A stretch of DNA of 40,235 bases from Gammaproteobacteria bacterium (GTDB lineage Bacteria; Pseudomonadota; Gammaproteobacteria; Steroidobacterales; Steroidobacteraceae). The translations under genes were made by a program, and so were the position numbers. Positions 17,811 through 33,616 of this stretch are shown one piece after another. The number at the start of each line of letters is the position of its first letter. The stretch's first letter is position 1. Location of the stretch: contig JAFAPI010000049.1 of NCBI GenBank assembly GCA_019247195.1, forward strand, positions 1 through 40,235, read 5' to 3'. The notes beneath the pieces are model-generated. The model saw only the letters and a list, made by a program, of their open reading frames with translations, ran no database searches and was not told the origin of the DNA.

Positions 17811-17875
17811 CCGGCCCCGAGCGGCGGTTCTTGCCCGCGGTAGGGTTTTCACTCAGCGGCCGCTCCAGTAAAGGC

Positions 17876-17898: not shown

Positions 17899-17999
17899 CG
17901 GCCACCACTCAGTAATGGGCGTAACTGCGGCTGGCTGGGCGGGCAACTATCGTTGTCACAGGCGGGATCCAGCCGCGATCCCGGACAGAAGAGGAAAGC

Positions 18000-18788: not shown

Positions 18789-19376
18789 TCAATCCTCACC
18801 GTTCATGTGGCGCACGAAATCGCGCAGGGCGGGGCGACGGTCCTCCCACAGCTCGTAATCGAGCACGGTATTGCCCGTGTCCATCCGCAGCGCCAGGTGG
18901 CGCGATTCGGCGAGGAAACGGATCACGGACAGGTCGGTGGCGTACGCCTCGGGGTGCGCGTCCATCCCCGGCGGTGCGTGCACCGCCATGCCGATCCCGG
19001 CCTCGTGCGCGCTGGAGCCCTTGGGGTGCAGCTCGATCTGGCGGTCATCGGCGAGGAGCGTCACCTGCGTGGCTGCCGCAGGGGTGTCCTCGCGCAGGCG
19101 CGGGTCGATGGTGGACCAGAAATACGCGATCAGGACGTAGCTGACCGTGCCCATGCGATTGACCGCCGCGGGGGCGAGCGTCACGTAGTCACGGGCATTG
19201 GCGGCGAGATCACGCCGCGCGAACGCGAACACCAGTGGCTCGTCGACCACCGTCACGGTGGCGGCGGTCTCCTCGTCGAGGTATTCGCGCGGCGGATGGC
19301 TGGCGGCGGCGGCATAAGGCGGCGCAGCGAGGGCAAGCAGGGCGCCCAGTGCCGCGCGCACTTGCACCCGCCTCAA
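18789..19376 (-). CDS. Small exported protein, last gene of the multiheme operon
   Basis: Up to 195 residues. The frame opens with TTG at 19376-19374, overlapping the TGA of the porin-like gene (TTGA). GTG at 19361 is an alternative start just before the signal peptide (AALGALLALAAPPYAAAA). The mature domain is rich in beta-type segments (VTVVDEPLVFAFAR, VTLLADDRQIELHP) with no Cys, heme motif or membrane segment, and I do not recognise the family. Coupling to the porin-like gene suggests a periplasmic or outer-membrane accessory of the conduit. It ends facing the SCO gene, with a 117-base convergent gap that shows no clear terminator. Confidence 0.65.
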   Translation of the reverse strand: MRRVQVRAALGALLALAAPPYAAAASHPPREYLDEETAATVTVVDEPLVFAFARRDLAANARDYVTLAPAAVNRMGTVSYVLIAYFWSTIDPRLREDTPAAATQVTLLADDRQIELHPKGSSAHEAGIGMAVHAPPGMDAHPEAYATDLSVIRFLAESRHLALRMDTGNTVLDYELWEDRRPALRDFVRHMNGED

Positions 19377-21847
19377 TGCTGAAAGCCAATGCGGTAAGCC
19401 ACGCTGACATAGTAGCGCGAGGTGTTCTGCGTCTGCACGAACTGCCCGGTGGCAAGCTGCAGCACCGCCTCGCGGTGGCCGAGTTGTCCGCCGGCCTCCA
19501 CCTGCAGCAGACGATTGCTGCGCTGCCAGTCGAGCAGCAGGGAGGGGAGGTAGCTCAGCTGATTGGTCCCCTCGGCTCTTGCGTTGAGGCGGTCGATGGT
19601 CAGGCGCGGGCCGAGGCGCCAGGCACCGCCGATCGGAAAGCGGCTGTTGAGGCTCACCGAGTCGATGACGCCGAGCTCGGTGTTGCCGTGGGTGAGGGTG
19701 ACGACGTTGAAGTCACCGGCGTGCCAGAGGTCCGAGCCGTAGAGCTGCGCCTGGTAGGTGAGCAGCAGGCCGGTGGCCGGCTCACTGGGCACGCCGCCCG
19801 AGGCGGGGGTCGCGGCGGTCTCGCTCGCCGCGACGATGGCACTGAAGGTGAAGCGCTGGCCGAGCGGCCGGCTCACGGTCGCGCTGTAGTTCTGTGTCTG
19901 TGGCGTCCGATCCCGTGCCAGCTGGTAAATCTGGTCCGGGGTCAGCTCCTGCAGCAGCTGGTTGAGGTCGGTGAAGGGCTGGCCGATCAGTGCATTGCGG
20001 GTGGTCAGCACCGGCGAGTTGCGCCGCTCGGCGTCGAAGCTGACCGTCCAGCGCGAGGGCAGCTGCAGGGTGCCCAGCACGCTCGCGGTATTGAGCGCGT
20101 GATAGAAGACATCGTAGTCGATGACCGCGACCAGCGAGCCGCGCGAGCTCAGGAGGCGCGACTCGGCCCCCACCGCGCGCCGGTCCTTGAAGCCGTCGAA
20201 CTGCTGCACGGCCGCGAACAGGCTCCCATCCCAATGCGCATTCGGCGGGGTGTACGCCAGGGCCAGACTCTCGAAGCGCTCCTGTGACTGCGGGGCGACG
20301 TTCAGCTGCTCCACGGGATAGCCGGCGGCGACGTTCAGCGCCCAGGAGGGGCGGAACTGCCACGAGAGAAACAGCCCGTCGAAGGTGCCGAGGATGCCGT
20401 CCTCGTTATGCGCCTGGCGGCCGAGCCGGGCGAGCAGGCCCAGCGGCCGGTCGAGCACCTCGATCGAGGCGAGGCTCACCCGGGTGGCATTGCCGAAGCT
20501 CGTCTGGCCGAAGACCTTGTCGTAGCCGGCGCTCAGACGTCCGACCCAGTCGTAGCTCTCCCCGCGCCGCCGCGCCAGCAGGTCGACGTCGGTGAAGAGC
20601 GCGTTCTCGTTGGTCGTGTCCTGGGTGGCGAGCGGCACGGTGTTCGGTGGGGGGGCGCCGTTGGAGACGCGCGTGCCGTCGTAGCGGGCCAGCTGGGCAA
20701 AACCGCCACTGACATGCCAGCCGCCGGCCTCGCCTGCCACCAGCCGGCCGGTGCGTGCCCGTGCCTCCGCCGCGCGCAGAATCTTCAGTCGGAAAGTGAT
20801 GCGTTCGGCGGCCTCGCCGTGCGGGTAGCGCCGCAGGTACTCCTCGTACTCCGCCTTGGCGTGCGCGAGCTGGCCCGAGCGCTCGCGCGCCAGCCCGAGC
20901 AGCTCCTGTGCCGCGGCCCGCCCCGGAAACTCTGGCTGCCGTTGCAGCCGGGTCAGCAGCGTGATCGCGCGCGGATAATCGCGCGCGGCCAGGGCCGCGC
21001 GGGCCTCGCTGAGCAGCGATTTGAGCTGCGTCTCCGGTAGCGCAGGGTCGCTGCCGGGCTTCTCCACCGGGGGCGGCGGGGCCGCGGCGGGTGCGCCGAG
21101 CGGGGATTCGCTGGTCACCGCGTCATCACCGATCGCCAGCCAGGCGCGCGGGTAGTCGGTGAGCGCCTGAGCGAGCAACCGGTCCGCCTCGGTGCGGCGC
21201 GCGATAGGCCCCACGCGCAGGCGGTACCACTTTTCCCCCTCGACCACCGTCTCCGAGACGAACGCGGGCGCCCGCAGGCGCTCGTGGGCGCGCTCGATCT
21301 CGGCGGGGTCGAAGGGCTTCGGCTGGGAATCGAGGTTGATGGCGAAGTTGCTGACCGCCTCGTTGAGCTCGCCGATGCGTACCTTGCCGCGCCCCCGGCC
21401 CCGGTCGATGAGCCGTAATCGCAGGCCGCGCGGATCGACCCCCTGCGCCAGCACGAACCGCTCGTTGCGGGCGAACGTGAGGCTCAGGGTCACCTGCCCG
21501 GGGGCGAGCGACTCGAGCCGGCCGGCGAGCACGATTCCGCCGCCGCCGGAGATGGGGAGGATCTCGCTGGAGATCTGTGCCAGCGGCCCGACCCCGCAGT
21601 CAGGCAGTGGCGCGAGCTGGATGTGGACTTCGCGGCCTTCGTTCGCGGGGACGCTGTTCACGAAGCGCATCGAGCAGTTGAAGACCAGGGTCAGGTCCGC
21701 CTGGTCCTCGTGCTCGTTGACCTCGATCACCTCGATGAGGCGCGTGACGGCCTGCGCGCTGAACTGCGCGTCCGCCGGCGAGGCGGCGAGGAGCAGCAGG
21801 CCGAGGAGGACAGGCGCTGGGATCGGCTCAGCGCTTGAACGTCGCAT
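19373..21847 (-). CDS. AMIN-like/SPOR/TPR protein with a C-terminal outer-membrane beta-barrel (candidate conduit porin)
   Basis: 824 residues. A signal peptide ends near ADAQ. Residues 30-175 form an AMIN-like beta domain, 197-243 a SPOR-like domain (KWYRLRVGPIARRTEADRL), and 275-360 helical TPR-like repeats (AKAEYEEYLRRYPHGEAAE). Residues 375-824 are about 450 residues of alternating amphipathic strands with aromatic girdles (GGWHVSGGFAQLARY, YDWVGRLSAGY, YYVSVAYRIGF), the pattern of an outer-membrane beta-barrel. The gene overlaps the 45-heme cytochrome gene by 20 bases. In known porin-cytochrome conduits a barrel of this size sheathes a multiheme cytochrome, so this is the natural candidate here. 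The SPOR and TPR parts may tie it to peptidoglycan or to the cytochrome. It could instead be a polysaccharide or peptide exporter of the TPR-barrel type, though no synthesis genes are near. Confidence 0.75.
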   Translation of the reverse strand: MRRSSAEPIPAPVLLGLLLLAASPADAQFSAQAVTRLIEVIEVNEHEDQADLTLVFNCSMRFVNSVPANEGREVHIQLAPLPDCGVGPLAQISSEILPISGGGGIVLAGRLESLAPGQVTLSLTFARNERFVLAQGVDPRGLRLRLIDRGRGRGKVRIGELNEAVSNFAINLDSQPKPFDPAEIERAHERLRAPAFVSETVVEGEKWYRLRVGPIARRTEADRLLAQALTDYPRAWLAIGDDAVTSESPLGAPAAAPPPPVEKPGSDPALPETQLKSLLSEARAALAARDYPRAITLLTRLQRQPEFPGRAAAQELLGLARERSGQLAHAKAEYEEYLRRYPHGEAAERITFRLKILRAAEARARTGRLVAGEAGGWHVSGGFAQLARYDGTRVSNGAPPPNTVPLATQDTTNENALFTDVDLLARRRGESYDWVGRLSAGYDKVFGQTSFGNATRVSLASIEVLDRPLGLLARLGRQAHNEDGILGTFDGLFLSWQFRPSWALNVAAGYPVEQLNVAPQSQERFESLALAYTPPNAHWDGSLFAAVQQFDGFKDRRAVGAESRLLSSRGSLVAVIDYDVFYHALNTASVLGTLQLPSRWTVSFDAERRNSPVLTTRNALIGQPFTDLNQLLQELTPDQIYQLARDRTPQTQNYSATVSRPLGQRFTFSAIVAASETAATPASGGVPSEPATGLLLTYQAQLYGSDLWHAGDFNVVTLTHGNTELGVIDSVSLNSRFPIGGAWRLGPRLTIDRLNARAEGTNQLSYLPSLLLDWQRSNRLLQVEAGGQLGHREAVLQLATGQFVQTQNTSRYYVSVAYRIGFQH

Positions 21848-24800
21848 CCGTCACTCGGTGATACGGTCCTGGCTGGCTCTTGAGGAGAGGGGGCGGCAGG
21901 CCTGCGCCGTAGACGTGGCAGGCCCCGCTGCAGTTGGTCAGTTCGCTCGCGCTGTAGCTCTGCGCCTTGGTGCGCGGGTGGGCGGCGGGGCGGAAGTCCT
22001 TGCTGTGGCAGCCCCCGCAGCTGCCGGCGCCGGCGGGGTTCGCGTAGCTCACCTGCTCGGTCCCCGAGGCGTGGCAGGCGGTGCAGGCAAGGGCGGCACG
22101 GTGCTCGCCCGGGTAGGCGGCGCTGGTATGGCGGAAATGCACCGCTCCCCAGTCCGGGTAGCTGTGACAGCTTCCACAGTCGCGGCGCGTCGCGAGGTGG
22201 CCGGGCGGCATGCCGACCGCGCCGGCGTTGTTGTGACAGACGGCACAGGCGCCGAGCGCAGTGCTGTGGTCGAAGCGCACCGGCACCCAGGCGAGGGTGC
22301 CGTGGCAGGTGTCGCACGGCTGGGCAGTCGGGATGTGCGTACGGGGCAGGCCGATCGCGCGGACCGCGTTGTGACAGCTGACGCAGGTGTGGGGTGCGAC
22401 CGCCGCGTGATCGAAACGGGCGGGTGTCCAGGCGTTGGTGGTATGGCAGCTCTCGCAGGCCGTGCTGGTGGGCAGATGGTGCGGCCACTTGCCGGCGGCC
22501 GTCGTCCCGTCGTGACAGGACACGCAGCTGCCGCGCACCTGGGCGTGGTCGACCCGCAGCACCGGCAACCAGGCCGTGAGGCCGTGGCACGCCCCGCAGC
22601 TGTCGCTGCTCGCCAGATGGCCGGCAGGCTTGCCGGCTGCCTGTGTCCCTGCGTGACAGCTCGCGCACGCCGTGCTCACGGCGGGGTGCACGGCGCTCGT
22701 CGCCGCGGTGGCATGCGGCGAGCTGCCGCGCGTCGCCGCCGGGGCTTGGGAGGTAGCGGCCGCCACCGGCCGCACGGCGCGCCTGTCGCGGGGGCTATGG
22801 CAGCCCGAGCCGCCACAGTCCTGGCCGCCGTGGTGGTTGGGCGAGGGGCGGGTCCAAAGTCCCCCGTTCGTCTTCCAGTTCATGTTGTATTCGTGGCAGC
22901 TCATGCACGGCATCGCGGTGACGTATGCGTGGCGCATCACCGTGCCGGAGAAGCTGGTGAACACGGTCGGCGAGTGACACAGCTCGCAGGCGATGCTGGC
23001 CGTGCCGTTGGGCGGCACGGCGGGGATGTGGCCGCTCGGCCCCGACGGCGGCTCCTTCAGAGTCGGCGGCGCCATGTTGTAGAAGCTGCGTCCATAGGCG
23101 TGGCACTGCGCGCAGTTGCTGGTGATGCCGCCATGCCCGGTCGCGCCCATGACGTACGCCGCATAGTTGCCCGCGGTGGTGTGGCACTGGGTGCAGGGGG
23201 CCGTGGTCGGGATGTGGTTGGCCGGCTTGCTCCCCCCCGACTCGTTGCTGGTGAAGGTGGGGGTCGTCGTGTGGCAGCCGTTGCAGTCACCGCTCGCCGG
23301 ATGCGCCGGGTCGAGCGCCATCGGGCGTGAGTCGCCCGCCACCGAGGCGGTACTGGCCACCATGCCGACGTAAGGCGCGCTCTCGTGGCAGCTCTGGCAG
23401 CCGGCCACTGCCTTGGCGACGGTGGCGTGGCCAGCGACGGTGAGCGTCGGCGTATTCACGTTGGCGGCACCGATGCGGAAGCCGCCGGGGTTCACGTTCG
23501 CCGTGGTATGGCAGCCGGCGCCATTGCAATCGAGCGAGCCGACCGGCATGTGGTTAGCCGGCGTGGTCGTGATCGAGATGTTGGCGAAGGTGCCGGCCAC
23601 ACTCGCCGCGTGGCAGCTGAGGCAGGTGCTCACCCCCTGGTGCACGCCCGGCCGCGAATAGAGCGAATAGTTGCCGGCGGTGGTGTGGCACTGCGCGCAG
23701 GGGGCGGCGGTGGGGATGTGGTTCGGGGGCTTGGCGTTGCCAGTCTGATTCAGGGCGAAGGTCGGCGTGGTGGTGTGGCAGCCGCTGCAGTCGCCGCTCG
23801 TGGGGTGGGCCTTGTCGAGCGCGGCCGAGGGGCGCGAGTCTCCCGCCGTCGCACCGCTCGCCACCATGCCCGCGTACGGGGCGGTCTCGTGGCACGCCTG
23901 GCAGCCGGCCACGGCCGCCTTGACCGTGTTATGGCCGGCCACGGTGAGCGTTGGGGTGTTGATGTTCGGATTGCCGAGCTTGAAGCCGCCCGGATTTACG
24001 TTGCTCGTGGTATGGCAGCCGGAGCCGTTGCAGTCGAGGGCTCCGATCGGGAAGTGGTTGGCGGGCGTGCTGACGATCTTGATGTTGGCGAAGGTCCCCG
24101 CCACCGCGGCGGCATGGCAACTGAGGCAGGCGCCCACCCCCTGATGCGTGCCGGTGACGGAATAGGAGGCGAAATTGCCCGGCGTGAGGTGGCACTGCGG
24201 ACAGGCGGCGGTCGTCGGGATGTGGTTGGCCGGCTTTACCCCGCCGACCACGTTGGTCTTGAAGACCGGGGTCGTGACGTGGCACTGGCCGCAGTCACCC
24301 GTGGCCGGATGGCTCGCATCGAGCTGCGCGGACGGCCGCGAGTCAGCGGCGGTGCTCGCGGTGCTCGGGGTCATGCCCAGATACGGCGCACTCTCGTGGC
24401 AGGTCTGGCAGGCGGGGACCGCCGCCAGCACCGTGGTATGGCCCGCCGCGGTGAGCGAGGGCGGATTGATGGTCGGGCCGCCGATGTTGAACCCGCCGGG
24501 GGCGAGCTTGCTGAGCGTGTGGCAGCCCGAGCCGTTGCAGTCGAGGCCGCCGATCGGGATGTGATTGCCGGGGCTGGTCACGATGGTGATGTGGGCGAAG
24601 GTACCGGCCACCGCCGGCGCATGGCACGCCAGGCAGGCGGTCACACCCTGGTGAGTGCCGGTGATGGAGTACTGGGTGTAGTCGTTCGCCACGGTGTGGC
24701 ACTGCGTGCACGGCGCGTTGGTGGGGATGTGGTTGGCGGGCTTGCTGCCCGCGGTCATGTTGGAGCCGAAGGTGGGCGCGGTCGTGTGGCAGCCGCCGCA

Positions 24801-26060
24801 GTCGCCGGTAGCGGGGTGGTGCGCATCGAGCGTGCTCAGCGGACGCGAGTCACCGGCCGCACTGCCGGTGCCGGCCACCATGCCCAGATACGGCGCCGTC
24901 TCATGACAGGTCTGGCAACTGGCGACACCCGCCACGGTCGCGTGCCCGGCGGCGCCGAGCGTCGGGGCGTTGATGCTCGCAGTGCCGAGCCTGAAACCGC
25001 CCGGGTTGAGGTTGGCGGTGCTGTGGCATCCGGAGCCGTTGCAATCGAGGCTGCCGATCGGGATGTGGTTGCCGGGGGTGGTGACGATGGTCACGTTGAC
25101 GAAAGTCCGCGCCACTGTCGGGGCATGGCAGGCGAGGCAGCTGCTCACCCCCTGATGCACTCCGGCCACCGAGTAGAGCGCGTTGTTGCCCGGGGTCGTA
25201 TGGCACTGGATGCACGGCGCGCTGGTGGGAATGTGGTTGGCCGGCTTGATCGCCGCGGCGGCGAACGAGACCGTGTCGTGACAGCCGCCGCAGTCCCCGG
25301 TCGGCGGATGTTTGGGATCAAACGCCATCGGCCGCGAATCAGCGGCCGCGCTGGCCGTGCTCGGGTGCATGCCGCGGTAGTTGGCGGTCTCGTGGCAGCT
25401 CGCGCAGCTGAGGGCGGTCACCGCTGCGTGATTGATGGTGGTGCCGGCCCAGGTGACAAAGTTTGTGGGCGAGTGGCAGCCCTCGCAGGGCACGTTGGGC
25501 GGGCCGGTGGGGAAGTGGTTGGCCGGCTTGCCGGTGGCCTGCACGCCGTCATGGCAGCTCGCGCAGTTGCCCGTCACCCCGGCGTGGGTGAACATCGCGC
25601 CGCCCCACGAAAGCGTGGTGTGGCAGGCATCGCACTCGAGATCGGTGGTGATGTGAGTCGGTCCCTTGCCCTGCGCCTGCACTCCGTTGTGACAGGTCGA
25701 GCAGCTGCCGCGTGCCTGGCTGTGGTCGAAATTCACCGCCGGCCGGAAGGCGATCGGGGTGTGGCAGGCGTCGCACCGGTCCGTGGAGAGGATGTGGGTC
25801 GCGGGTTTGGCGGTGGCGCGGATCGCGGTGCCGACGCCGTGGCAGGCGCCGCAGTCCTTGGGCGTGCCCTTGAAGATGGCATTGGCGTGGCAGGACTCGC
25901 ACGGCAGGTCGCGATGCTGGCCGATGAGCTCGAACCCGGTCGTCAGGTGGTCGAACTGCGCGCGATCGGGCGGGGCGGCGGAAGCGGCGCCGACCCCCAG
26001 CAGACCTAAGAGGGCGAGCAGCGTTGCGCGCAGGGCGTGCAGCGGGCAGGTGTGCGGCAT
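21828..26060 (-). CDS. Very large multiheme cytochrome c with 45 candidate heme sites
   Basis: 1410 residues. The longer open frame has about 73 extra codons, but translation should start at ATG 26060. That ATG overlaps the previous stop as TGATG, has AAGG upstream, and is followed directly by a signal peptide (LLALLGLLGVGAASA). I count 39 CxxCH, five CX4CH (four CNGSGCH/CNGAGCH and one CGGSGCH) and one terminal CX3CH (CSGACH). Residues about 1-250 and 1130-1400 follow a CxxCH...FDH pattern like the neighbouring 21-heme protein. The middle is four tandem five-heme units of about 168 residues. There is no membrane anchor. Multiheme proteins this size act as periplasmic or extracellular electron wires, and operon position points to transfer between the 21-heme cytochrome and the outer-membrane barrel. 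Whether every site binds heme is unproven. Confidence 0.9.
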   Translation of the reverse strand: MPHTCPLHALRATLLALLGLLGVGAASAAPPDRAQFDHLTTGFELIGQHRDLPCESCHANAIFKGTPKDCGACHGVGTAIRATAKPATHILSTDRCDACHTPIAFRPAVNFDHSQARGSCSTCHNGVQAQGKGPTHITTDLECDACHTTLSWGGAMFTHAGVTGNCASCHDGVQATGKPANHFPTGPPNVPCEGCHSPTNFVTWAGTTINHAAVTALSCASCHETANYRGMHPSTASAAADSRPMAFDPKHPPTGDCGGCHDTVSFAAAAIKPANHIPTSAPCIQCHTTPGNNALYSVAGVHQGVSSCLACHAPTVARTFVNVTIVTTPGNHIPIGSLDCNGSGCHSTANLNPGGFRLGTASINAPTLGAAGHATVAGVASCQTCHETAPYLGMVAGTGSAAGDSRPLSTLDAHHPATGDCGGCHTTAPTFGSNMTAGSKPANHIPTNAPCTQCHTVANDYTQYSITGTHQGVTACLACHAPAVAGTFAHITIVTSPGNHIPIGGLDCNGSGCHTLSKLAPGGFNIGGPTINPPSLTAAGHTTVLAAVPACQTCHESAPYLGMTPSTASTAADSRPSAQLDASHPATGDCGQCHVTTPVFKTNVVGGVKPANHIPTTAACPQCHLTPGNFASYSVTGTHQGVGACLSCHAAAVAGTFANIKIVSTPANHFPIGALDCNGSGCHTTSNVNPGGFKLGNPNINTPTLTVAGHNTVKAAVAGCQACHETAPYAGMVASGATAGDSRPSAALDKAHPTSGDCSGCHTTTPTFALNQTGNAKPPNHIPTAAPCAQCHTTAGNYSLYSRPGVHQGVSTCLSCHAASVAGTFANISITTTPANHMPVGSLDCNGAGCHTTANVNPGGFRIGAANVNTPTLTVAGHATVAKAVAGCQSCHESAPYVGMVASTASVAGDSRPMALDPAHPASGDCNGCHTTTPTFTSNESGGSKPANHIPTTAPCTQCHTTAGNYAAYVMGATGHGGITSNCAQCHAYGRSFYNMAPPTLKEPPSGPSGHIPAVPPNGTASIACELCHSPTVFTSFSGTVMRHAYVTAMPCMSCHEYNMNWKTNGGLWTRPSPNHHGGQDCGGSGCHSPRDRRAVRPVAAATSQAPAATRGSSPHATAATSAVHPAVSTACASCHAGTQAAGKPAGHLASSDSCGACHGLTAWLPVLRVDHAQVRGSCVSCHDGTTAAGKWPHHLPTSTACESCHTTNAWTPARFDHAAVAPHTCVSCHNAVRAIGLPRTHIPTAQPCDTCHGTLAWVPVRFDHSTALGACAVCHNNAGAVGMPPGHLATRRDCGSCHSYPDWGAVHFRHTSAAYPGEHRAALACTACHASGTEQVSYANPAGAGSCGGCHSKDFRPAAHPRTKAQSYSASELTNCSGACHVYGAGLPPPLLKSQPGPYHRVTDATFKR
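23289..25295 (-). repeat. Four tandem ~504-bp units in the 45-heme cytochrome gene
   Basis: Measured from one GDCxxCH codon block to the next, the units are 492, 507, 504 and 504 bp. Each encodes five heme sites in the same order (CxxCH, CxQCH, CLxCH, CNGxGCH, CQxCH) with shared linkers such as KP(A/P)NHIPT, HQGV and LDCNG. The strong similarity suggests internal duplication and makes the locus prone to copy-number change and assembly error. Confidence 0.9.
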
Positions 26061-27622
26061 CAGTGCACCTTGGCGCCCTTGAAGGTGCTCGTGGTGTGGC
26101 AGCGGTCGCACTGACGGCCGTACTGCCCGAGGTGCACGTCGTCCTTCTCGTGACAGGACAGGCAGTCCTGCTTCAGTTTCACCTCGTCCGCGGGCCGGCG
26201 GTGGCAGGCCTCGCAGGCGAGCTTGCCGTGCGCGCCGGCGAGCGCGAAGCCCGTCTCGCGTCCATGGTCGAACTCCCACAGCCGCCAGCCGTTGGGTGAG
26301 TGGCAGCGCTGGCAGTCCTTGCCGAGATTGCCCTTGTGCACGTCATCGGCGCGGTGGCAGTCGATGCAGTCCTTGCCGACGTCGCGGTATTGCCGGGTGA
26401 GGTGGCACTGCTCGCACGGCACGGTAACGTGCTGACCGACGAGCGGATAGCTGGTCAGGTCATGATCGAAACTGACGCTCGCCCGCCAACCCTCCGGGGT
26501 GTGGCACTGCTCGCAGTCGCGCCCGAGCTTGCCGAGGTGCACATCGCTGGCGCGGTGACAGCCGATGCAGTCGTGCGGCAGCTTCTGCTGCGCCAGCACC
26601 GCGGAGTGGCAGGCGTGGCAGCCGAGCTTCTCGTGGTGGCCCACCAATGGCCATTGGGTGTCGCGCGTGTGATCGAAGGTGCTCGGCTTCCACTTCTCGT
26701 TGCCGTGGCACTTCTCGCACTCACGCCCCAGCCGCCCGGCGTGCGAATCCTGCCCGCGGTGGCAGCCGAAGCAGTCGCGCGGCAGCTTGTCCTTCAGGTT
26801 ACCGCTGCGGTGGCAGTCGTTGCAGGCGATGCGGTCGTGTACGCCCTCGAGCGCGAAACCGGTCTCCTGCGTATGGTCGAATTTTGAGTTCTTCCAGCCC
26901 TTGGTGGTGTGGCAGTCCGCGCACTTGCCGCCGCGCTCACCGTGGTGCACGTCGTCGGGTTCGTGACAGGAGACGCACTCGCGCGGCGTGCCCTTGTAGT
27001 GGTTGCCAAAGTGGCAGGACTGGCACGGGAGGTCACGGTGGCGGTCATGCAGCGGAAAGCTGGTCTTGTCGTGGTCGTAACTGACGTGCCGCCACGCCAC
27101 GACGTCGTGACAGGTGGCGCAGTTGCGCGCCACCCGGCCCTCGTGCGGATCCTCGCGGTGGTGGCAGCCCACGCACTCCTCCGTAGCGCTGCGGTAGGGA
27201 CGGCCGGCGGCGTGGCACGCATCGCAGGCGACGCGCTGGTGCGCGCCGCGCAGTGGATAGTTGGTCAGCTCGTGGTTGAACTGCTCGCGGCTGAGTTTGC
27301 GGATATCCGCGTCGCGGCCGCGGTGCTCGGAGTGGCAGGCCCGACACTGCGAGGTGTCCATGGCGGCGAGCCGGCCGTGGTAGCCCTTGTGCTCGCGCAG
27401 ATCGAGCGCGATCTCCTTGTGACAGTCCAGGCACAGCGCGCTCTGGCGGTTGCGATCGCTGCGGTCATGGCACAGCGAGCACTGCTCCTCGTACTTGGCG
27501 TGCGCGCTGCTGAGTTTGCCGGGCATGAGCAGGGTCTCGGGATTGACGGCGTCAGCGCGCCGCGCCGCCACGGCGCCCAGCATCACCAGGAGCAATACTC
27601 CGAGACATCGGCCCCCCTGCAT
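26060..27622 (-). CDS. 21-heme periplasmic cytochrome c
   Basis: 520 residues, starting at ATG 27622 because the signal peptide (CLGVLLLVMLGAVAARRADA) begins there. The longer open frame upstream is a shadow of the membrane cytochrome gene. It contains 21 CxxCH motifs and no other heme motif type. Six repeats of about 70 residues follow an initial three-heme block. Each repeat has three hemes with DVH(x)G between the second and third, then W...FDH, then (F/Y)(A/P)L.G.H before the next heme. The extra His residues are good candidates for distal ligands, giving mostly bis-His low-potential hemes. It starts five bases after the membrane cytochrome stop and overlaps the 45-heme gene. The inferred role is to accept electrons from the inner-membrane cytochrome in the periplasm and pass them on, or the reverse. 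Confidence 0.9.
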   Translation of the reverse strand: MQGGRCLGVLLLVMLGAVAARRADAVNPETLLMPGKLSSAHAKYEEQCSLCHDRSDRNRQSALCLDCHKEIALDLREHKGYHGRLAAMDTSQCRACHSEHRGRDADIRKLSREQFNHELTNYPLRGAHQRVACDACHAAGRPYRSATEECVGCHHREDPHEGRVARNCATCHDVVAWRHVSYDHDKTSFPLHDRHRDLPCQSCHFGNHYKGTPRECVSCHEPDDVHHGERGGKCADCHTTKGWKNSKFDHTQETGFALEGVHDRIACNDCHRSGNLKDKLPRDCFGCHRGQDSHAGRLGRECEKCHGNEKWKPSTFDHTRDTQWPLVGHHEKLGCHACHSAVLAQQKLPHDCIGCHRASDVHLGKLGRDCEQCHTPEGWRASVSFDHDLTSYPLVGQHVTVPCEQCHLTRQYRDVGKDCIDCHRADDVHKGNLGKDCQRCHSPNGWRLWEFDHGRETGFALAGAHGKLACEACHRRPADEVKLKQDCLSCHEKDDVHLGQYGRQCDRCHTTSTFKGAKVH

Positions 27623-27627
27623 TGAGA

Positions 27628-28755
27628 TCAGTACACGTGCACGGCTATGACGTGGATGATCGCGGCGATGATCATCATGAACATGAGTGGAATGTGCAGC
27701 GCGTGCCAGAGCGAGAACAGGCGCTCGTATCCGGCGAAGCCCGCCACCTTGCGCGTGGCGCTCAGGCGCCGGTCGACGTAGGCGCACGCCACCGCGCGCA
27801 GCCGGCGCTGTTCGCTCGCCAGCACCGAGGACTTGCGCGCCCCCGCGCGCAACGCGCTGCGCACGTACCCGTGCAGCCGCCAGCGCAGCCCCGTGCTGAG
27901 GCAGCCGACCACGAGGGGCTTGAGGAACCCGAGCATCGCCCCCCGCGGACTGGCGTTGAGCAGTCGGTGCTCGGCCTGCTCCAGTCGCTCCACCAGCTCG
28001 GGCACGAAGCCCACGCTGGCACGCAGGTTCTTCAGCCCCTCCGCACCGGCCCGCAGCTCGCTGAGCTGCAGTTTGTGGCCGTAGAGCCCCTGGTGCACCC
28101 GGGCGTAGATATAGCGGCCGATGATGCCGCTGCCGGCCACGGTCAGCATGCAGAAGAGGGCGACGTTGCTGTTGGTTGCACCGGTGCTGAAGTTGGCGTG
28201 GTAGAGGATGCAGAGCGGGCCGAGGATTCCCAACACCATGTGGAAGCGGAACCAGCTCGGCGTCGCGCCGAGGAAGCGCAGCCAGCTGTAGCGCTTGCGC
28301 GCCGAGTAGAGGAGCAGGATCAGCATCAGGCTGCCGCCGATGATGCCGAGGGCATAGCCCGCACCGCGCTTTGGCGTGATGTAGTGCTCGGTGGGAAGCA
28401 GCCACCCCAGCAGCAGCAACACCAGCACCCCGGCGGTGAACACGCGCCCGGGGCTCAACCCCCGGCGGGTTACGGTCGCGGTGCGCGCTTCGGGGTGTGC
28501 CACGCCCGGACGCGCCGCGGGCACGGCAGCCGGCATCGCGGGGGCGGGAGCGGGCACGGCGACTGGAGCCAGAAAATCGATCGCCGCACTGGCCGCAGGG
28601 CCGGGCTGGGCCACCGGCACGGGCTCGGGAGCTGCCGCCGGCGGCACTGGGAGCGGGGCGCGGAGTTTGCCCTGCAGCTCCCCGAGCCGTACCACCCGCA
28701 CGCGCAGTTCGCTGGGCTCGTCGGCCTCGGGTAGCGGATGCGGCTGGGCGGCCAT
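27628..28755 (-). CDS. Multi-histidine membrane cytochrome b-like protein
   Basis: 375 residues. Residues 1-100 are hydrophilic and Pro/Ala-rich. Membrane segments lie at about 104-120, 133-150, 171-187, 196-214 and 352-375, with a charged Arg-rich stretch (215-345) between the last two. Histidines sit in or beside the helices: H172 and H186 in segment 3, and H351, H354, H368 and H373 around segment 5. This is the pattern expected for one or two bis-His b hemes, as in cytochrome b561 or ferric-reductase-like proteins. It starts nine bases after the CcmI-like gene and is followed five bases later by the 21-heme cytochrome, so it is likely the inner-membrane quinol- or flavoprotein-linked partner. 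No close family is recognised, and the heme count is inference. Confidence 0.65.
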   Translation of the reverse strand: MAAQPHPLPEADEPSELRVRVVRLGELQGKLRAPLPVPPAAAPEPVPVAQPGPAASAAIDFLAPVAVPAPAPAMPAAVPAARPGVAHPEARTATVTRRGLSPGRVFTAGVLVLLLLGWLLPTEHYITPKRGAGYALGIIGGSLMLILLLYSARKRYSWLRFLGATPSWFRFHMVLGILGPLCILYHANFSTGATNSNVALFCMLTVAGSGIIGRYIYARVHQGLYGHKLQLSELRAGAEGLKNLRASVGFVPELVERLEQAEHRLLNASPRGAMLGFLKPLVVGCLSTGLRWRLHGYVRSALRAGARKSSVLASEQRRLRAVACAYVDRRLSATRKVAGFAGYERLFSLWHALHIPLMFMMIIAAIIHVIAVHVY

Positions 28756-28763
28756 ACGCGGCG

Positions 28764-30014
28764 TCAGCCGATTTCCCGGTCGATGGTCAGGGCGAGGGCG
28801 GCCGCGGCGCCGGGTTTGAGCACCGCGCTCGTGGTGTAGAGATCGCCGCTCTGCGGGGTCGCCTGGCCGCTGCGCGAGAGTCTCGCCTCCACCACGACGC
28901 GGTCGAACTGCGACAGGCGCCGCGAGGGCAGCATAGCCATCGAGTCATCCAGCCGGAAGCTCACCGGCCATGAGGCCGCGGTGGTACGCAGCACGGCAAG
29001 CGGCGGACCGGGTGCGTCGGCGGCCTTGGCGTATATGAAGAGCACCGCGTTGGGAGCGATACGCCCCCGCAGCCGCGGATCGACCGAGACGGTGCCCGCC
29101 ACCGCGACATCCGCGGTCTGGGTCGCGGCGCCCGGAGTGGCGAGCTCGCTGTCCTCGGTGATGTTGCCGGCAATGATCCGGGCGTCGGGGCTGTCGGCGG
29201 GGAGCAAGGCCTGCAAGGTACGCCAGTCCGCGAGCGCCTCGCGGTAGCGGTGCTGCTCATGCGCCTGACTCGCCTTGAGCCACAGCGCCTTGATGTTGTG
29301 CGGATCGAGTACGAGCGCCTGATCGATAGCCTCGCCGGCGGCTCCGCCGAGCGAGCCGCCGGCGAGCGAGGCCAAGACATCGGCGTAGTCGGCCCAGCTC
29401 TGCGCAGTCATCGCCTTAAGTCCAATTGCGTGTCCGTAGGCATCGCGAGCGCCGGCATAGTCGTGCTGGCCGCGGCGTGCGTCGGCGAGCTTCAGCCATC
29501 CGGCGGCATCGGTTGGCGGCGCGGAGCGCTCCGGTGCGCCCGCCTCGGCCCGGGGGGCGGGCCCCTCGAGGCTCGCGGCCTGCGCGGCCAGGGCGCTCGG
29601 GGTAAGCGGCGGCGCGGTCGACGGGCTTACGAGTTTTGCCCGCGCACGGCGCGCATCCTCCGGGCGACCCTGAAAGTCATAAGCTCGGGCCAGGAGATCC
29701 CAGTCCGCATCCGAGCCGCCGCCGCGGGCAAGACGCGCCTCAAGACCTGCGACCGCCGCGTCCATGGACTCACCACTGGTGCCCGCGGCCGCCGCGGATA
29801 CCGTGTGGGGAAGCGCGTGCGACGGCGGAAAGCGCAGAGCGAAGTAAAGGACGCCGGCTGCGAGCAGGACCAGGACTCCGAGCGCGGGCACGTAGAGGTA
29901 AGGGCGGCGCACCGAGAGCCTCAAGCTCGCGGCGCGACCGCGCACGAGGCGCGCGAGTAGGAGGCCGGCGCTCGCACCAACCAACACTCCAAGTACAAAG
30001 GAAGCCCAGGACAT
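28764..30014 (-). CDS. ccmI: CcmI/CycH-type cytochrome c maturation protein
   Basis: 416 residues from ATG 30014 (a GTG at 30017 is also possible). Two membrane helices (about 5-22 and 40-60) flank a short basic segment, followed by TPR-like helices (WDLLARAYDFQGRPEDA, WLKLADARRGQHDYAGARDAY). The final 100 residues match the CcmI C-terminal domain: SVDPRLRGRIAP, AVLFIYAKA, a LDDSMAMLPSRRLS-like block, and ARLSRSGQATPQSGD. CcmI holds unfolded apocytochrome c in the System I maturation pathway and passes it to the heme ligase. No other ccm genes are present. As the first gene of the multiheme operon it is probably a dedicated apocytochrome chaperone for the 66 candidate sites encoded downstream, supplementing a genomic ccm set elsewhere. 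Confidence 0.85.
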   Translation of the reverse strand: MSWASFVLGVLVGASAGLLLARLVRGRAASLRLSVRRPYLYVPALGVLVLLAAGVLYFALRFPPSHALPHTVSAAAAGTSGESMDAAVAGLEARLARGGGSDADWDLLARAYDFQGRPEDARRARAKLVSPSTAPPLTPSALAAQAASLEGPAPRAEAGAPERSAPPTDAAGWLKLADARRGQHDYAGARDAYGHAIGLKAMTAQSWADYADVLASLAGGSLGGAAGEAIDQALVLDPHNIKALWLKASQAHEQHRYREALADWRTLQALLPADSPDARIIAGNITEDSELATPGAATQTADVAVAGTVSVDPRLRGRIAPNAVLFIYAKAADAPGPPLAVLRTTAASWPVSFRLDDSMAMLPSRRLSQFDRVVVEARLSRSGQATPQSGDLYTTSAVLKPGAAAALALTIDREIG

Positions 30015-30081
30015 CACTTCAAACCAACACCTGAACGACGCGAATCTGCGCGAGCGTACGCGGTTTGAAAGTCAATGCACG

Positions 30082-30122
30082 ATGTCGGAACTCACAGACA
30101 GGTTGTCTCCGTTCACCGACAT
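30082..30122. promoter_or_regulatory. Concentric inverted repeat, candidate operator
   Basis: Outer arms ATGTCGG (30082-30088) and CCGACAT (30116-30122) are perfect inverse copies. Inner arms AGACA (30096-30100) and TGTCT (30104-30108) share the same centre (30102), with seven bases between inner and outer arms on each side. The two halves also contain a near-direct repeat, TCACAGACA and TCACCGACA. Such layered symmetry in a divergent promoter region suggests a binding site for a dimeric or tetrameric regulator, but no regulator gene is in the window. Confidence 0.45.
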
Positions 30123-30143
30123 AACTCCTGAGAAAACAGGCAG

Positions 30144-30171
30144 TTGAACAGGGTATCTCCGCGATTAGAGT
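30144..30171 (+). promoter_or_regulatory. Weak sigma-70-like promoter match
   Basis: TTGAAC and TAGAGT with a 16-base spacer each match four of six consensus bases. It would give a leader of about 150 bases before the flavoprotein start at 30331. In GC-rich DNA such a match has modest weight. Confidence 0.25.
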
Positions 30172-30192
30172 GCGGGTGGGTCGCGAGGGGGG

Positions 30193-30219
30193 ACAAGTAG
30201 GGGAAATACCCATTCTTGT
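30193..30219 (+). promoter_or_regulatory. Imperfect leader hairpin
   Basis: ACAAG (30193-30197) pairs with CTTGT (30215-30219), and GGG within 30200-30203 pairs with CCC (30209-30211). This gives a short interrupted stem in the presumed 5' leader of the flavoprotein transcript. There is no T tract and no recognisable riboswitch. It could be incidental. Confidence 0.25.
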
Positions 30220-30330
30220 GCACCCCGTCACACCTTTGGATCGTGCAGGCCGCAGGTACCCTCGGTGGCAACGAGCGGCCGCGATACGCTTGTTCGTCCT
30301 CAAGCGGCGTGGCGTGCTAGAAGAGCGCGG

Positions 30331-31638
30331 ATGGATTCGGTGATCTACCTCGTCTACGGCATTCCCGTGGCGCTGCTGCTCGTGTGGCATGTGCGGCGCC
30401 GGCGTCGCATCGAAGCCCGCAGCATCGCGGTGCAGGACAGCATGGGCAGCGCCGAGCCCGCCTCGCTCCACCCCCACATCGATCCGGCGCGTTGCATCGG
30501 CTGTGGCTCCTGCCTCAAGGCCTGCCCCGAGCAGGAGCACCACGCGGTCCTCGGCCTGGTGAGCGGGCGCGCGGTCCTGGTCAGCCCGGGCGACTGCATC
30601 GGACACGGGGCGTGCAAGACCGCCTGCCCGGTCGAGGCGATCACCTTGGTGTTCGGCAGCGAGCGCCGCGGCGTCGACATCCCCCTCGTCAGCCCGAGCT
30701 TTGAGTCCACCGTCCCGGGCATCTACGTGGCCGGCGAGCTGGGGGGTATGGGCCTGATTCGCAATGCGCTCGAGCAGGGGCGCCAGGCCGTGGAGGCGAT
30801 CGCGGCGCGCGCACGGCGTGGGGGGGCTGCGGGGGATGCCCTCGACCTCCTCATCGTCGGCGCCGGTCCGGCGGGGTTCGCCGCCTCGCTCGCGGCGCTC
30901 TCGCGCCGGATGCGCTACGTGACGCTCGAGCAGGAATCCCTCGGCGGCAGCGTGTTCCAGTACCCGCGCGGCAAGCTGGTGATGACCGCGCCTGCCACCC
31001 TGCCACTGGTGGGCAAGGTGAGCTTCCGGCAGACCAATAAGGAGGAACTGCTGCAGTTCTGGAAGGAGACCGAGCGCAAGACCGGGGTGCAGATCCGCTA
31101 CCAGGAGCGGGTCGAGGAGATCACCCGTGAGGGCGAGCTGTTCCGGGTACGCAGCAGCAAAGGCGAGTATCGCGCGCGCACGGTCCTGCTCGCCATCGGC
31201 CGCCGCGGCTCGCCGCGCAAGCTCGGCGTCCCCGGGGAAGAGCAGCCGAAAGTCGTGTACCGCCTGATCGAGGCCGAGCAGTACGTGAACCAGCGCGTGC
31301 TGGTGGTGGGGGGCGGTGACAGCGCTCTCGAGGCCGCCGCCAGCATCGCCGCCGCCGGCAGCGAGCAGGTCGTCCTCTCCTATCGCGGCGAAGTGTTCGA
31401 CCGCGCCAAGGCGCGCAACCGCGAGCGCGTGCAGCAGGCCGCCCGCGCCGGGCGCCTGCACGTGCTCATGAAGTCCAACGTCAAGCAGATCGGCACCGAC
31501 CACGTGGCCCTCGAACACGAGGGGAAGGTCGTCTCCCTGCGAAACGACGCGGTGATCGTCAGCGCGGGGGGCGTTCTGCCCTCGGATTTCCTGCGCAAGG
31601 TCGGCATCGAGGTGGAGACCAAGTATGGGACGGCCTGA
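30331..31638 (+). CDS. Membrane-anchored two-cluster ferredoxin/flavin NAD(P)-type oxidoreductase with permuted flavin domain
   Basis: 435 residues from ATG 30331, chosen because a membrane anchor (SVIYLVYGIPVALLLVW) and a stop-transfer RRRRR follow at once. Cluster 1 ligands are C55, C58, C61 and C65. Cluster 2 reads C89-x2-H92-x2-C95-x3-C99, with His in place of the usual second Cys. Residues 128-157 (VPGIYVAGELGG, LIRNALEQG) match the C-terminal flavin-contact segment of thioredoxin-reductase-like proteins, yet precede the FAD loop (IVGAGPAG, 175-182). The NAD(P) loop VVGGGDSALE is at 325-334, and the protein ends without the usual terminal segment. The redox CxxC of thioredoxin reductase is absent. 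It would link NAD(P)H or ferredoxin with a membrane acceptor, plausibly the cytochrome b-like protein encoded divergently. Confidence 0.85.
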   Translation: MDSVIYLVYGIPVALLLVWHVRRRRRIEARSIAVQDSMGSAEPASLHPHIDPARCIGCGSCLKACPEQEHHAVLGLVSGRAVLVSPGDCIGHGACKTACPVEAITLVFGSERRGVDIPLVSPSFESTVPGIYVAGELGGMGLIRNALEQGRQAVEAIAARARRGGAAGDALDLLIVGAGPAGFAASLAALSRRMRYVTLEQESLGGSVFQYPRGKLVMTAPATLPLVGKVSFRQTNKEELLQFWKETERKTGVQIRYQERVEEITREGELFRVRSSKGEYRARTVLLAIGRRGSPRKLGVPGEEQPKVVYRLIEAEQYVNQRVLVVGGGDSALEAAASIAAAGSEQVVLSYRGEVFDRAKARNRERVQQAARAGRLHVLMKSNVKQIGTDHVALEHEGKVVSLRNDAVIVSAGGVLPSDFLRKVGIEVETKYGTA

Positions 31639-33616
31639 GCGCGCGGCCCTCTGGCTGCTCGCCCTGCTGAGTGGGGTCGCACTCGCGGCCGTCTCCCCGC
31701 CCCGGGCTGACGAGCACCTGGAGCCGGTCAAGGCGGCCGTGCGGCTCAAGAACTTCAGCGAGGCGCTGCGCACGCTGCGGCCGCTGGCGGAAGGGGGGGA
31801 TGCCGAGGCGCAGTACATCCTCGGCACCTTCTACCTCAATGGCCTCACCGGGCCGCCCGATGCCCCCCAGGCGCGCGCCTGGTTGGAGAAGGCGGCAAAC
31901 GCGGGCCATGCCCGCGCGGCCTTCAGTCTCGCCAACCTGCTGGCGAGCACCGATCCGCCGGATCCGGCGGCCGCCGAGCGCTGGCTGAACCGCGCGCGTG
32001 AGCTCGGTTTCCGCGCCCCTGCTGCTGCCGCGAGCGCGGGTGGCCGAAGCGCCGCGCCCGCCAGCCTGCTACCGGCCGCCCAGATCACGGATCCCGCCGC
32101 GCGGCGCGAGGCCTTCTGGCTCGCGGCGGCCAGCGACGACGTCCCGACGGTGAAGCTGCTCGCCGCACACCCCGAACTCGTCAATGACCGTGATGATTTC
32201 GGACGGGGCGCCTTGGCGCGCGCAGCCGAAACCGGGGCGCAGGGCGCCGTGGGGGTGCTGCTACAGCACGGTGCGGCGGTCGACACCCCCGACAGCGCCG
32301 GGGTCACGCCGCTCATGCTCGCCGCCGCCAGCGGTGACGCCGCCAGCGTGACGGCGCTGCTCAAGGCGGGGGCGCGGGTCGACGCGGCCGATCAGCGCGG
32401 CAATACCGCCCTCATGTACGCCGCGCGGGCCGGCAAGATGCCCGTCGTCCAGCGTCTGCTCGAGGCGGGGGCCAGCCCCCTGTTGCGGGACGTCCAGGAC
32501 TGGTCCGCCCTCGATTTCGCGGAGACGAGCGGCGCGACGGAAGTGGCGGCGCGCCTGCGCGAGCGGGGTGCCACGGCCCTGCACCGCAGCCCGATCATCG
32601 AGACCGCACCGACCACCGTGCAGCACGCGACGAGCGCGCGCGATCTGTACGCGGGCTGGCCCGATGCGGCGGTCGCCGCGGGCCGCGATGCGCCGACGCT
32701 CTTGCGCGCGGTCCTGAGCCACGGGGCGGACCTGACTGTCGCGACGCCGGACGGGACACCCGTGCTGGGCTGGGCTGCGCTCAACAGCTCGCCCGCCACT
32801 GTCGCGCTGCTCTTGGATGCGGGGGCGCCTGCCGGCCGCGCCGATCGTCGCGGCAGCTCACCGCTTCTGCTGGCGGTCGACAACGGCCGTGATGACATCG
32901 TGGGCGCTCTGCTGGCCCACGGGGTCTCCGCCGACGGCGGGCACGACGACGCGGAGGCCCCGCTGCTCGCCGCGGCGAAGATGGGGCGAGCCACGGCCGT
33001 ACGTGCGCTGCTGGCGGCGCATGCCCACGTCGAGGTGCGCGACAGGCTCGGCACGAGCGCCCTCATGGTGCTCGCGCACAGCGGGGATCTGGACTCAGTA
33101 CGGGCCTTGCTAGAGGCGGGAGCCGCGGTGGACGGTGTCGACAAGGCCGGCCGCACGGCGCTTTGGTATGCGGCCCGAGCCGGTCGCGCCGAGGTCACCC
33201 AGCGCCTGCTCGCCAGCGGCGCGGATCCTCAGCACGCGGACGGCGCCGGCGTCACGCCGCTCATCGCCGCCACCCTCGGCGGCAGCGTGGCCGTGACCGA
33301 AGCGCTGCTGACCAAGGGCGCCCAGGTCGATGCCCACACCGCCGGCGGGGACACCGCACTGCTGCTCGCGGCCAACCTCGGAGCCCTGCCGCTCATCGAG
33401 AGGCTGCTCGCTCACCAGGCGGACAAGGACGCCCAGAACGCATTTGGCGATACGGCGCTCATCATCGCGAGCCGCAACGGCAACCTGGCGCTGGTACGGA
33501 GGCTGCTGGCCGCCGGCGCGAGCACGCTGCTGCGCAATAAGGATCGATTCACGGCGGCCGACGTGGCGGCCGCGCGCTCCTTCGGCGAGCTCGCAAGCCT
33601 GTTGAAGGGCGCCTAG
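31625..33616 (+). CDS. Secreted Sel1-repeat and ankyrin-repeat protein
   Basis: 663 residues with a signal peptide (LWLLALLSGVALAA). Residues about 35-130 hold Sel1-like helical repeats (AEGGDAEAQYILGTFYLNG, AANAGHARAAFSLANLL). From about 165 to the end there are some 14-15 ankyrin repeats (GNTALMYAARAGKMPVVQRLLEAGA type), interrupted near 315-345 by a non-repeat linker. No catalytic motif is seen, so this is a protein-interaction scaffold, most likely periplasmic. The start overlaps the flavoprotein stop by 14 bases, so the two are translationally linked, and the scaffold may organise the periplasmic cytochromes. It ends 52 bases before a convergent gene, and no terminator is visible there. 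Confidence 0.85.
   Translation: MGRPERAALWLLALLSGVALAAVSPPRADEHLEPVKAAVRLKNFSEALRTLRPLAEGGDAEAQYILGTFYLNGLTGPPDAPQARAWLEKAANAGHARAAFSLANLLASTDPPDPAAAERWLNRARELGFRAPAAAASAGGRSAAPASLLPAAQITDPAARREAFWLAAASDDVPTVKLLAAHPELVNDRDDFGRGALARAAETGAQGAVGVLLQHGAAVDTPDSAGVTPLMLAAASGDAASVTALLKAGARVDAADQRGNTALMYAARAGKMPVVQRLLEAGASPLLRDVQDWSALDFAETSGATEVAARLRERGATALHRSPIIETAPTTVQHATSARDLYAGWPDAAVAAGRDAPTLLRAVLSHGADLTVATPDGTPVLGWAALNSSPATVALLLDAGAPAGRADRRGSSPLLLAVDNGRDDIVGALLAHGVSADGGHDDAEAPLLAAAKMGRATAVRALLAAHAHVEVRDRLGTSALMVLAHSGDLDSVRALLEAGAAVDGVDKAGRTALWYAARAGRAEVTQRLLASGADPQHADGAGVTPLIAATLGGSVAVTEALLTKGAQVDAHTAGGDTALLLAANLGALPLIERLLAHQADKDAQNAFGDTALIIASRNGNLALVRRLLAAGASTLLRNKDRFTAADVAAARSFGELASLLKGA

Follow-up and report, generated by a model that had tools for sequence, protein, structure and literature searches.

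The 40,235-nucleotide contig JAFAPI010000049.1 (assembly GCA_019247195.1) of a gammaproteobacterium from the family Steroidobacteraceae, hereafter called the window, carries a porin-cytochrome cluster of the PCC3 type, in which genes for a cytochrome b-like inner-membrane protein (IMP), two multihaem cytochromes c (MHC1 and MHC2) and an outer-membrane barrel are accompanied by a divergently transcribed gene for a membrane-anchored iron–sulphur (Fe-S) flavoprotein. This flavoprotein is a near-constant partner of the PCC3 IMP. We propose that it is a cytoplasmic redox partner acting on the IMP, a reading to which we assign a probability of about 0.55. The window is one whole contig of a draft genome (3.18 Mb, 92% complete), and the cluster is laid out in it as follows:

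18789..19376, minus strand: 195-aa protein with an apparent signal peptide (by eye), last gene of the operon
19373..21847, minus strand: outer-membrane barrel with N-terminal beta domain, SPOR and TPR parts (SPOR 2.6e-6; AlphaFold)
21828..26060, minus strand: MHC2, presumed surface cytochrome c, 1410 aa, 45 haem sites (motif count and Pfam)
26060..27622, minus strand: MHC1, periplasmic-type cytochrome c, 520 aa, 21 haem sites (Cytochrome_C7 1e-27)
27628..28755, minus strand: IMP, cytochrome b-like, probable two-haem-b relay (two WX3HX13H and SGXXG)
28764..30017, minus strand: CcmI/CycH-like membrane TPR protein (Pfam Ig_CycH 3e-31, TPR_CcmH_CycH 7e-16)
30331..31638, plus strand: membrane-anchored Fe-S flavoprotein (Pfam Pyr_redox_3 2.8e-41, Fer4)
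31625..33616, plus strand: Sel1 and ankyrin-repeat protein with an apparent signal peptide (by eye; Ank_2 1e-64, Sel1 6e-10)

Identity of the cluster

Read in the direction of transcription, the minus-strand genes encode the CcmI-like protein, IMP, MHC1, MHC2, the barrel and the 195-aa protein, the first two junctions being gaps of 8 and 5 bases and the remaining three overlaps of 1, 20 and 4 bases. On the plus strand, the last 14 bases of the flavoprotein gene are shared with the Sel1-ankyrin gene. An earlier note on this DNA had placed the six minus-strand genes and the flavoprotein at these same coordinates, described them as near-touching or overlapping, given the cytochromes 21 and 45 haem sites and singled out the flavoprotein as the odd component, all of which is borne out here; the Sel1-ankyrin gene was absent from it. 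The same note recognised no described system in this arrangement. That was mistaken: the genes and their order correspond to PCC3 (He et al. 2017, PMC5566968), and the idea of a new system was dropped once the match had been found.

As defined by He et al., PCC3 consists of four genes in the order IMP, periplasmic MHC, extracellular MHC and porin, with a quinone-linked model. Its IMP has about 300 aa, five transmembrane helices, an SGXXG motif and two WX3HX13H motifs, the median haem numbers are 21 for the periplasmic and 34 for the larger MHC, and there are 22–39 aa per haem (PMC5566968). The two cytochromes of the window fall within the latter range (520/21 = 24.8 for MHC1 and 1410/45 = 31.3 for MHC2). 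The gene order also matches that of Slit_1446-1449 in Sideroxydans lithotrophicus ES-1, as given in excerpts of PMC12016527. Our scan recovered the published PCC3 host Bradyrhizobium sp. STM 3843 (named in PMC5566968) as locus L066, with the IMP at 45%, the flavoprotein at 54% and two MHC genes in order, and no porin match was found there before the contig end. A Sideroxydans sp. was recovered as locus L092 (IMP 36%, MHC 24 + 29, porin 28%). In print, PCC3 is widespread among alpha-, beta- and gammaproteobacteria; further loci came from metagenome bins labelled Nitrospinaceae, Deltaproteobacteria, Acidobacteriota and Omnitrophota. A conduit from the inner membrane to the cell surface, as the earlier note had it, is the best fit to the gene content and coincides with the published reading; electron transport itself would follow from this fit, and for the cluster type as such it is a published proposal (PMC5566968).

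The flavoprotein accompanies the inner-membrane protein

To follow the cluster across genomes, the IMP alignment was searched against genome contigs, which gave 292 relatives, the best 80 loci of which were analysed. The conserved synteny that the earlier note had suggested looking for was found: the flavoprotein gene is present in 71 of the 80 loci (57 of the 59 with at least 4 kb upstream), and a porin gene in 48 of the 80 (38 of the 39 with at least 9.5 kb downstream). As many of the contigs are short, loci with enough flanking sequence were counted separately. In 65 of these 71 loci with a flavoprotein, it and the IMP are on opposite strands; of the six same-strand cases, two are labelled Nitrospinaceae, two Deltaproteobacteria and one Omnitrophota. 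For eight of the nine loci without a linked flavoprotein, the genome has a copy elsewhere, that of G409 being a piece at a contig end. Two loci with a long upstream stretch and no flavoprotein (L070 and L092) come from genomes that carry it beside another IMP. In G125, PCC3 spans two contigs (L100 and L101), one with the flavoprotein, ankyrin protein, porin and a 13-site cytochrome, the other with the IMP, a 21-haem cytochrome and a further cytochrome.

Genome-level tallies, which include all genomes, gave the same picture. The IMP occurs in 42 and the flavoprotein in 45 of 369 genomes sampled from the class: 41 have both, 1 the IMP only, 4 the flavoprotein only and 323 neither. Two of the four flavoprotein-only genomes (G137 and G340) hold pieces, that of G340 lying where a contig begins; a third, G216, is assembled to 72% completeness, and the protein of the fourth, G178, is a different one. 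The corresponding numbers for 80 genomes of the Gallionellaceae, the family of G407 (the Sideroxydans genome with locus L092), are 33, 0, 2 and 45, and for 398 genomes of the phylum 6, 0, 1 and 391, the flavoprotein-only genome again being G178. The class and phylum samples share G000, G125 and G178, and the places found in G838 of the phylum sample are identical to those in G415 of the Gallionellaceae sample. The two genes are adjacent, within 3 kb, for 37 of 47 IMPs in the class and 29 of 43 in the Gallionellaceae, and 65 of these 66 pairs are divergent. These rows use 48 of the 51 flavoprotein places of the class (omitting the second G073 piece, G178 and G340), 47 of its 48 IMP places (omitting a second partial match in G302) and 43 of the 44 IMP places of the Gallionellaceae (omitting a second partial match in G480). 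Per genome, the best 4 or 21 first-look candidates for the flavoprotein and the best 6 for the IMP were scored where more existed, so that absences are slightly less sure than presences. Fisher tests for co-occurrence returned p-values of 1e-48 and 2e-20, which are too small because related genomes were treated as independent.

Distances among flavoproteins and among IMPs correlate (r = 0.74), and none of 2000 permutations reached this value in a Mantel test on 63 of the 71 flavoprotein loci. As there was no species-tree control, this correlation speaks for co-inheritance only. All five class genomes with two IMPs also have two flavoproteins. No report of the flavoprotein as a constant PCC3 partner was found among the papers that our literature searches listed, and words beginning with ‘flavo’ do not occur in the main texts of PMC5566968, PMC10734462, PMC13386937, PMC12442390 and PMC8788666; the neighbouring gene may be shown by He et al. 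in Fig. 6 or in their tables. Such a constant partner provides a concrete handle on PCC3.

Sequence and predicted fold of the flavoprotein

The flavoprotein probably starts at the ATG at 30331, 66 bases downstream of the GTG of its open reading frame, which gives 435 aa. Its N-terminus consists of a hydrophobic anchor (residues 3–21) and RRRRR, followed by CIGCGSCLKACP and CIGHGACKTACP, and there are two Fe-S motifs, the second with a His in place of its second Cys. IGHG[AST]C occurs in all 71 relatives, the full CIGHG[AST]C...CP in 70 of them and the first Fe-S motif in 69. There is no catalytic disulphide, as all seven Cys residues of the window protein sit within the Fe-S motifs. These are followed by a segment resembling the second FAD segment of the thioredoxin-reductase superfamily, PGIYVAGELGGMGLIRNALEQG; GxGxxG and an NAD(P) motif come after it, before the chain ends. 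This order recurs: among the 71 relatives, the AGELGG segment is N-terminal to the GxGxxG-type motif in all 67 frames in which both were found.

When a profile of the FAD segment was compared with PDB chains, 15 of 17 matches were second FAD segments, which in those proteins lie C-terminal to the NAD(P) domain; they include glutamate synthase small chain, transhydrogenase and ferredoxin-NADP reductase and are weak (E 0.0055–0.99), and the other two matches are esterases. The full profile aligned with YpdA in permuted order, with the second piece at background (-0.3 and 0.4 bits). YpdA (7a76) is the best match both by sequence and by Foldseek, where the FAD/NAD(P) part of the AlphaFold model resembles it with low template modelling (TM) scores of 0.29–0.31 on the query, and the protein stays below the NCBIfam cut-off for YpdA (169.5 against 339.9 bits). 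We therefore regard it as likely, not proven, that the FAD/NAD(P) module is a circularly permuted thioredoxin-reductase-like fold, given the weak PDB scores, the low TM-scores and the low confidence of the model in the Fe-S region. In a literature search on circular permutation, the term was not found among the matches listed. An apparently permuted FAD module combined with a conserved His in an Fe-S motif makes the flavoprotein look unusual.

The different protein of G178 is a 780-aa frame (L118:3910-6249, minus strand) that contains an apparently permuted, thioredoxin-reductase-like flavin module of 34% identity, in which the FAD segment likewise comes first. The module is joined to a membrane part of polyferredoxin type that has Fer4_5 and 4Fe-4S dicluster domains and C-terminal 4Fe-4S sites, a precedent for a flavin module feeding a membrane redox path.

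Inner-membrane protein, cytochromes and barrel

The IMP carries its two WX3HX13H motifs at W168 and W350 and SGXXG at 209, and the W, H and SG..G columns are invariant across 18 homologues. Its 375 aa exceed the roughly 300 aa of the published type by an N-terminal Pro/Ala-rich extension. Four separate regions pass a hydropathy of 1.5 (105–123, 131–149, 198–216 and 354–372), with the helix of the first WX3HX13H below this value. No Pfam family was found above its cut-off, and no PDB chain matched the IMP profile at E 0.1. A long loop (218–345) contains 23 K/R and 9 D/E residues. By positive-inside reasoning, this basic loop and the RRRRR that follows the anchor of the flavoprotein suggest that both should face the cytoplasm.

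MHC1 contains 21 CXXCH motifs in 520 aa, and MHC2 contains 39 CXXCH, one CX3CH and five CX4CH motifs, i.e. 45 sites, in 1410 aa, far above the means of 1.0 and 1.3 (maxima 5 and 7) in 500 shuffles. Pfam Cytochrome_C7 matches both. Counting frames that lie inside their contig (71 of the 80 loci for MHC1, 46 for MHC2), MHC1 relatives have 21 haem sites in 59 cases, 18 in seven, 24 in two and 27, 33 and 23 in one each, so that the number is divisible by three in 70 of 71; MHC2 relatives range from 7 to 74. Internal repeats measure about 68 aa and multiples in MHC1 and 168 aa in MHC2 (best self-match at offset 168), and Tandem Repeats Finder detected no tandem DNA repeats in the cytochrome genes. 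According to excerpts of PMC10734462, the periplasmic subunit of Gallionellaceae is listed with 21, 24 and 27 haems, and 21–27 haems could span the periplasm. These patterns would fit MHC1 as a periplasmic wire that is assembled from three-haem units and fixed in length, and MHC2 as a surface part free to vary. MHC2 also matches the Pfam MtrC/MtrF-like domain II/IV with 88.9 bits (cut-off 30), a score to be read with care as haem-rich profiles easily cross-match, and against the decahaem NCBIfam models it reaches at best 65.6 bits where 192.2 are required. For MHC1, these models gave no match, nor were relatives found in the PDB at 1e-5. The domain match fits a surface cytochrome, not membership in MtrCAB.

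For the barrel, the AlphaFold model (mean predicted local distance difference test score, pLDDT, of 82) has 22 strands in residues 377–823 by our count, of which strands 13 and 14 are separated by a helical insert (616–646); beta, SPOR and TPR parts lie N-terminal to them. Pfam finds SPOR (2.6e-6), with TPR below its cut-off; no MtrB/PioB match was obtained at E 0.01, and the three matches of the barrel profile to PDB chains at E 0.01 all lie within the SPOR or TPR parts. The 50 Foldseek matches listed are generic barrels and ushers with TM-scores of at most 0.28 on the query. These results point to neither MtrB nor a polysaccharide exporter.

Companion genes

The CcmI-like and Sel1-ankyrin genes are frequent, optional companions of the cluster. 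The former occurs in 47 of the 80 loci and in 41 of the 68 with at least 2 kb upstream, where the flavoprotein is found in 66. The genome holds another CcmI-like copy, the sole further match at E 0.01, which is 33% identical and adjoins CcmF, CcmH and AhpC/TSA-Redoxin (CcmG-like) genes in L106; the copy in the window therefore looks like a dedicated paralogue, probably a haem-ligation chaperone reserved for the cluster. The Sel1-ankyrin gene, for which matches of 80 bits or less were dropped from the locus counts, is present in 45 of the 80 loci and 37 of the 55 with at least 6.5 kb upstream. The 195-aa gene occurs in 25 of the 80 and 24 of the 39 with at least 9.5 kb downstream, and its product has no Pfam or NCBIfam match at E 0.01.

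Proposed electron path and alternative explanations

The PCC3 IMP has been likened to the membrane half of NADPH oxidase and ferric reductase, and quinone exchange has been proposed for it (PMC5566968). Given this likeness and the cytoplasmic facing that the two proteins should share, we propose the flavoprotein as the dehydrogenase half. Electrons would pass from NAD(P)H or another soluble carrier to FAD and the two Fe-S clusters of the anchored flavoprotein, from there to the haem b on the cytoplasmic side of the IMP and on to that on the periplasmic side, and then along the 21-haem wire of MHC1 and through the 22-strand barrel to the 45-site MHC2 and an extracellular acceptor; the IMP may in addition exchange electrons with quinone. 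Outward flow would be energetically favoured for NAD(P)H, and inward flow from Fe(II) to NAD(P)+ would need an input of energy. The CcmI-like protein would probably pass the apocytochromes, with their many haem sites, to the machinery for cytochrome c maturation. It is from the genes that we infer the location of each protein and the donor, course, direction and stoichiometry of the electron flow.

With such a partner, PCC3 could link to NAD(P)H, beyond quinone alone. Should the flavoprotein feed the conduit, PCC3 would be an outward NAD(P)H-linked reductase and not a default marker of iron oxidation. We advance more tentatively the idea that PCC3 conduits are NAD(P)H-linked with the permuted flavoprotein as the missing dehydrogenase half of a split NADPH-oxidase-like transmembrane reductase, whose electrons would exit along a 21-haem wire across the periplasm, and that a single flavoprotein can drive several conduits in one cell. 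If true, PCC3 would represent a class of extracellular electron transfer fed from the soluble nicotinamides of the cell, without passage through the quinone pool.

Several observations weigh against a redox partner of this kind. The use of NAD(P)H is deduced from Pfam and motif comparison; the flavoprotein model is of moderate quality (pLDDT 72, below 50 in the Fe-S region), leaving the permuted fold a prediction. The first Fe-S motif is absent from two of the 71 flavoproteins (L082 and L089), and that of L047 lacks the first Cys of the second motif. Intact copies are missing from the genome of L043 (G411), a locus whose contig is cut upstream, and from G229, the only IMP-only genome of the class; that of G073, counted among the 41 genomes with both, is in two pieces with a stop. 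Beside its IMP, which persists along with a cytochrome frame of 21 haem motifs, G229 retains a remnant (L120:3805-4152, plus strand) that kept the anchor, the first Fe-S motif and the last residues and lost the FAD/NAD(P) part. In the Gallionellaceae, seven of eight genomes with two or three IMPs keep a single flavoprotein, which is thus no fixed subunit of each conduit. Finally, PCC3 genes were downregulated with Fe(II) in ES-1, according to excerpts of PMC8788666, a result that also counts against the published inward direction.

In that published form, PCC3 would take electrons inward from a donor outside the cell, Fe(II) for example, and pass them through the IMP to the quinone pool, and the flavoprotein would be a co-regulated accessory with a separate task. 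The model and the IMP-quinone argument of He et al. (PMC5566968) speak for it. So does, in excerpts of PMC12442390, the upregulation of one PCC3 IMP gene when Sideroxydans CL21 can oxidise iron; the same excerpts report PCC3 genes as expressed above the mean in this strain. PCC3 is moreover found in many iron-oxidising Gallionellaceae (PMC10734462) and in 33 of the 80 genomes of that family analysed here. Yet a separate task does not account for the persistence of the flavoprotein wherever there is an IMP, even in genomes where the two are unlinked (G125 and G471). In addition, the RuBisCO large subunit was not detected in the 92%-complete genome of the window, and an autotrophic need for inward electrons is therefore not obvious there. 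On balance, we consider the inward conduit with an accessory flavoprotein rather unlikely. More doubtful is a role in maturation, whereby the flavoprotein, the CcmI-like protein and perhaps the ankyrin protein keep haem or apocytochrome thiols reduced or aid cytochrome assembly. The position of the CcmI-like gene between flavoprotein and IMP in many loci and the thioredoxin-reductase-like sequence and fold of the flavoprotein would suit this role, and we retain it since a single flavoprotein can go with several clusters, the behaviour expected of a factor that acts in trans. Against it stand the lack of an active-site disulphide, the many flavoprotein loci in which no CcmI-like gene was found, and the CcmF, redoxin, CcmH and CcmI-like genes that the genome has in L106.

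It is very improbable that the barrel exports polysaccharide or another polymer, in the manner of the TPR-and-barrel proteins PgaA and BcsC, and that the cytochromes are unrelated periplasmic carriers. Such a function is suggested by the TPR part next to the barrel and by AlgE among the generic Foldseek matches listed. However, exporters of the PgaA, BcsC and AlgE type have barrels of 16–18 strands, where the model has 22, and the 50 matches listed are generic and low in score. No polysaccharide-synthesis domain was found in the eight cluster proteins scanned with Pfam, and the barrel stays with the cytochromes in nearly every locus with enough downstream sequence. A cytoplasmic redox partner for the PCC3 IMP is our preferred reading.

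Genes adjoining the cluster

Next to PCC3, a separate cassette (104–18671, plus strand) encodes a 551-aa multicopper oxidase, a 3788-aa protein with a multicopper-oxidase-like N-terminal part (by eye) and a C-terminal ASH domain, small proteins, a LolA-like protein and a neighbour resembling it, a protein of 581 aa that has a single CXXCH, and SCO1/SenC. It is possibly an extracellular metal-oxidising system. Most of the gene set recurs in G010 (L115), about 15 kb from the PCC3 flavoprotein of that genome, and in G005 (L117), where no PCC3 gene was matched in the 20 kb read. The multicopper oxidase is present in three of 40 genomes, that of the window included, and all three have a PCC3 IMP. 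We did not adopt the island as a part of PCC3, as it is rare and lies on the opposite side in the sole relative where it is near the cluster. A 97%-identical copy of residues 1–129 of the multicopper oxidase at a contig start (G000:C227:3-389) is either a duplicate or an assembly overlap.

On the other side of the cluster, an AcrB-type RND pump and an outer-membrane efflux protein are encoded at 34421–38985 (minus strand). The same pair, with a pump of 85% identity, lies about 7 kb from PCC3 in G001 (L107).

Comparison with known systems

The window resembles PCC3 as described in its gene order, in the motifs of the IMP, in its 21 and 45 haem sites (medians 21 and 34) and in the low number of residues per haem. 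It differs, together with nearly all its relatives, in the added Fe-S flavoprotein, often along with the CcmI-like and Sel1-ankyrin genes. In PCC4 of subgroup II, a gene for an Fe-S protein likewise lies upstream of the IMP gene, yet PCC4 lacks an extracellular MHC, and its IMP has no significant overall homology to that of PCC3 (PMC5566968). With MtrCAB, MtoAB and PioAB, the cluster shares the idea of a porin combined with periplasmic and surface cytochromes, and MHC2 matches the MtrC/MtrF-like domain II/IV, whereas neither a porin of the MtrB/PioB family nor a decahaem MtrA-family model above its cut-off is found here.

Compared with thioredoxin-reductase-like enzymes such as YpdA and the thioredoxin-reductase-type ferredoxin-NADP reductase, to which it is closest by sequence and fold, the flavoprotein shares the FAD and NAD(P) motifs and differs in the lack of a catalytic disulphide, in the added anchor and two Fe-S motifs, and in its second FAD segment, which those enzymes carry after the NAD(P) domain and the flavoprotein before GxGxxG. 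NADPH oxidase and ferric reductase resemble the IMP as two-haem membrane proteins with HX13H pairs on two helices (PMC5566968), a likeness that our proposed pairing of the IMP with a cytoplasmic flavin module would extend. Here, however, the two halves would be encoded by separate genes, the flavin module would be of the thioredoxin-reductase type with Fe-S motifs, and electrons would leave through a 21-haem cytochrome.

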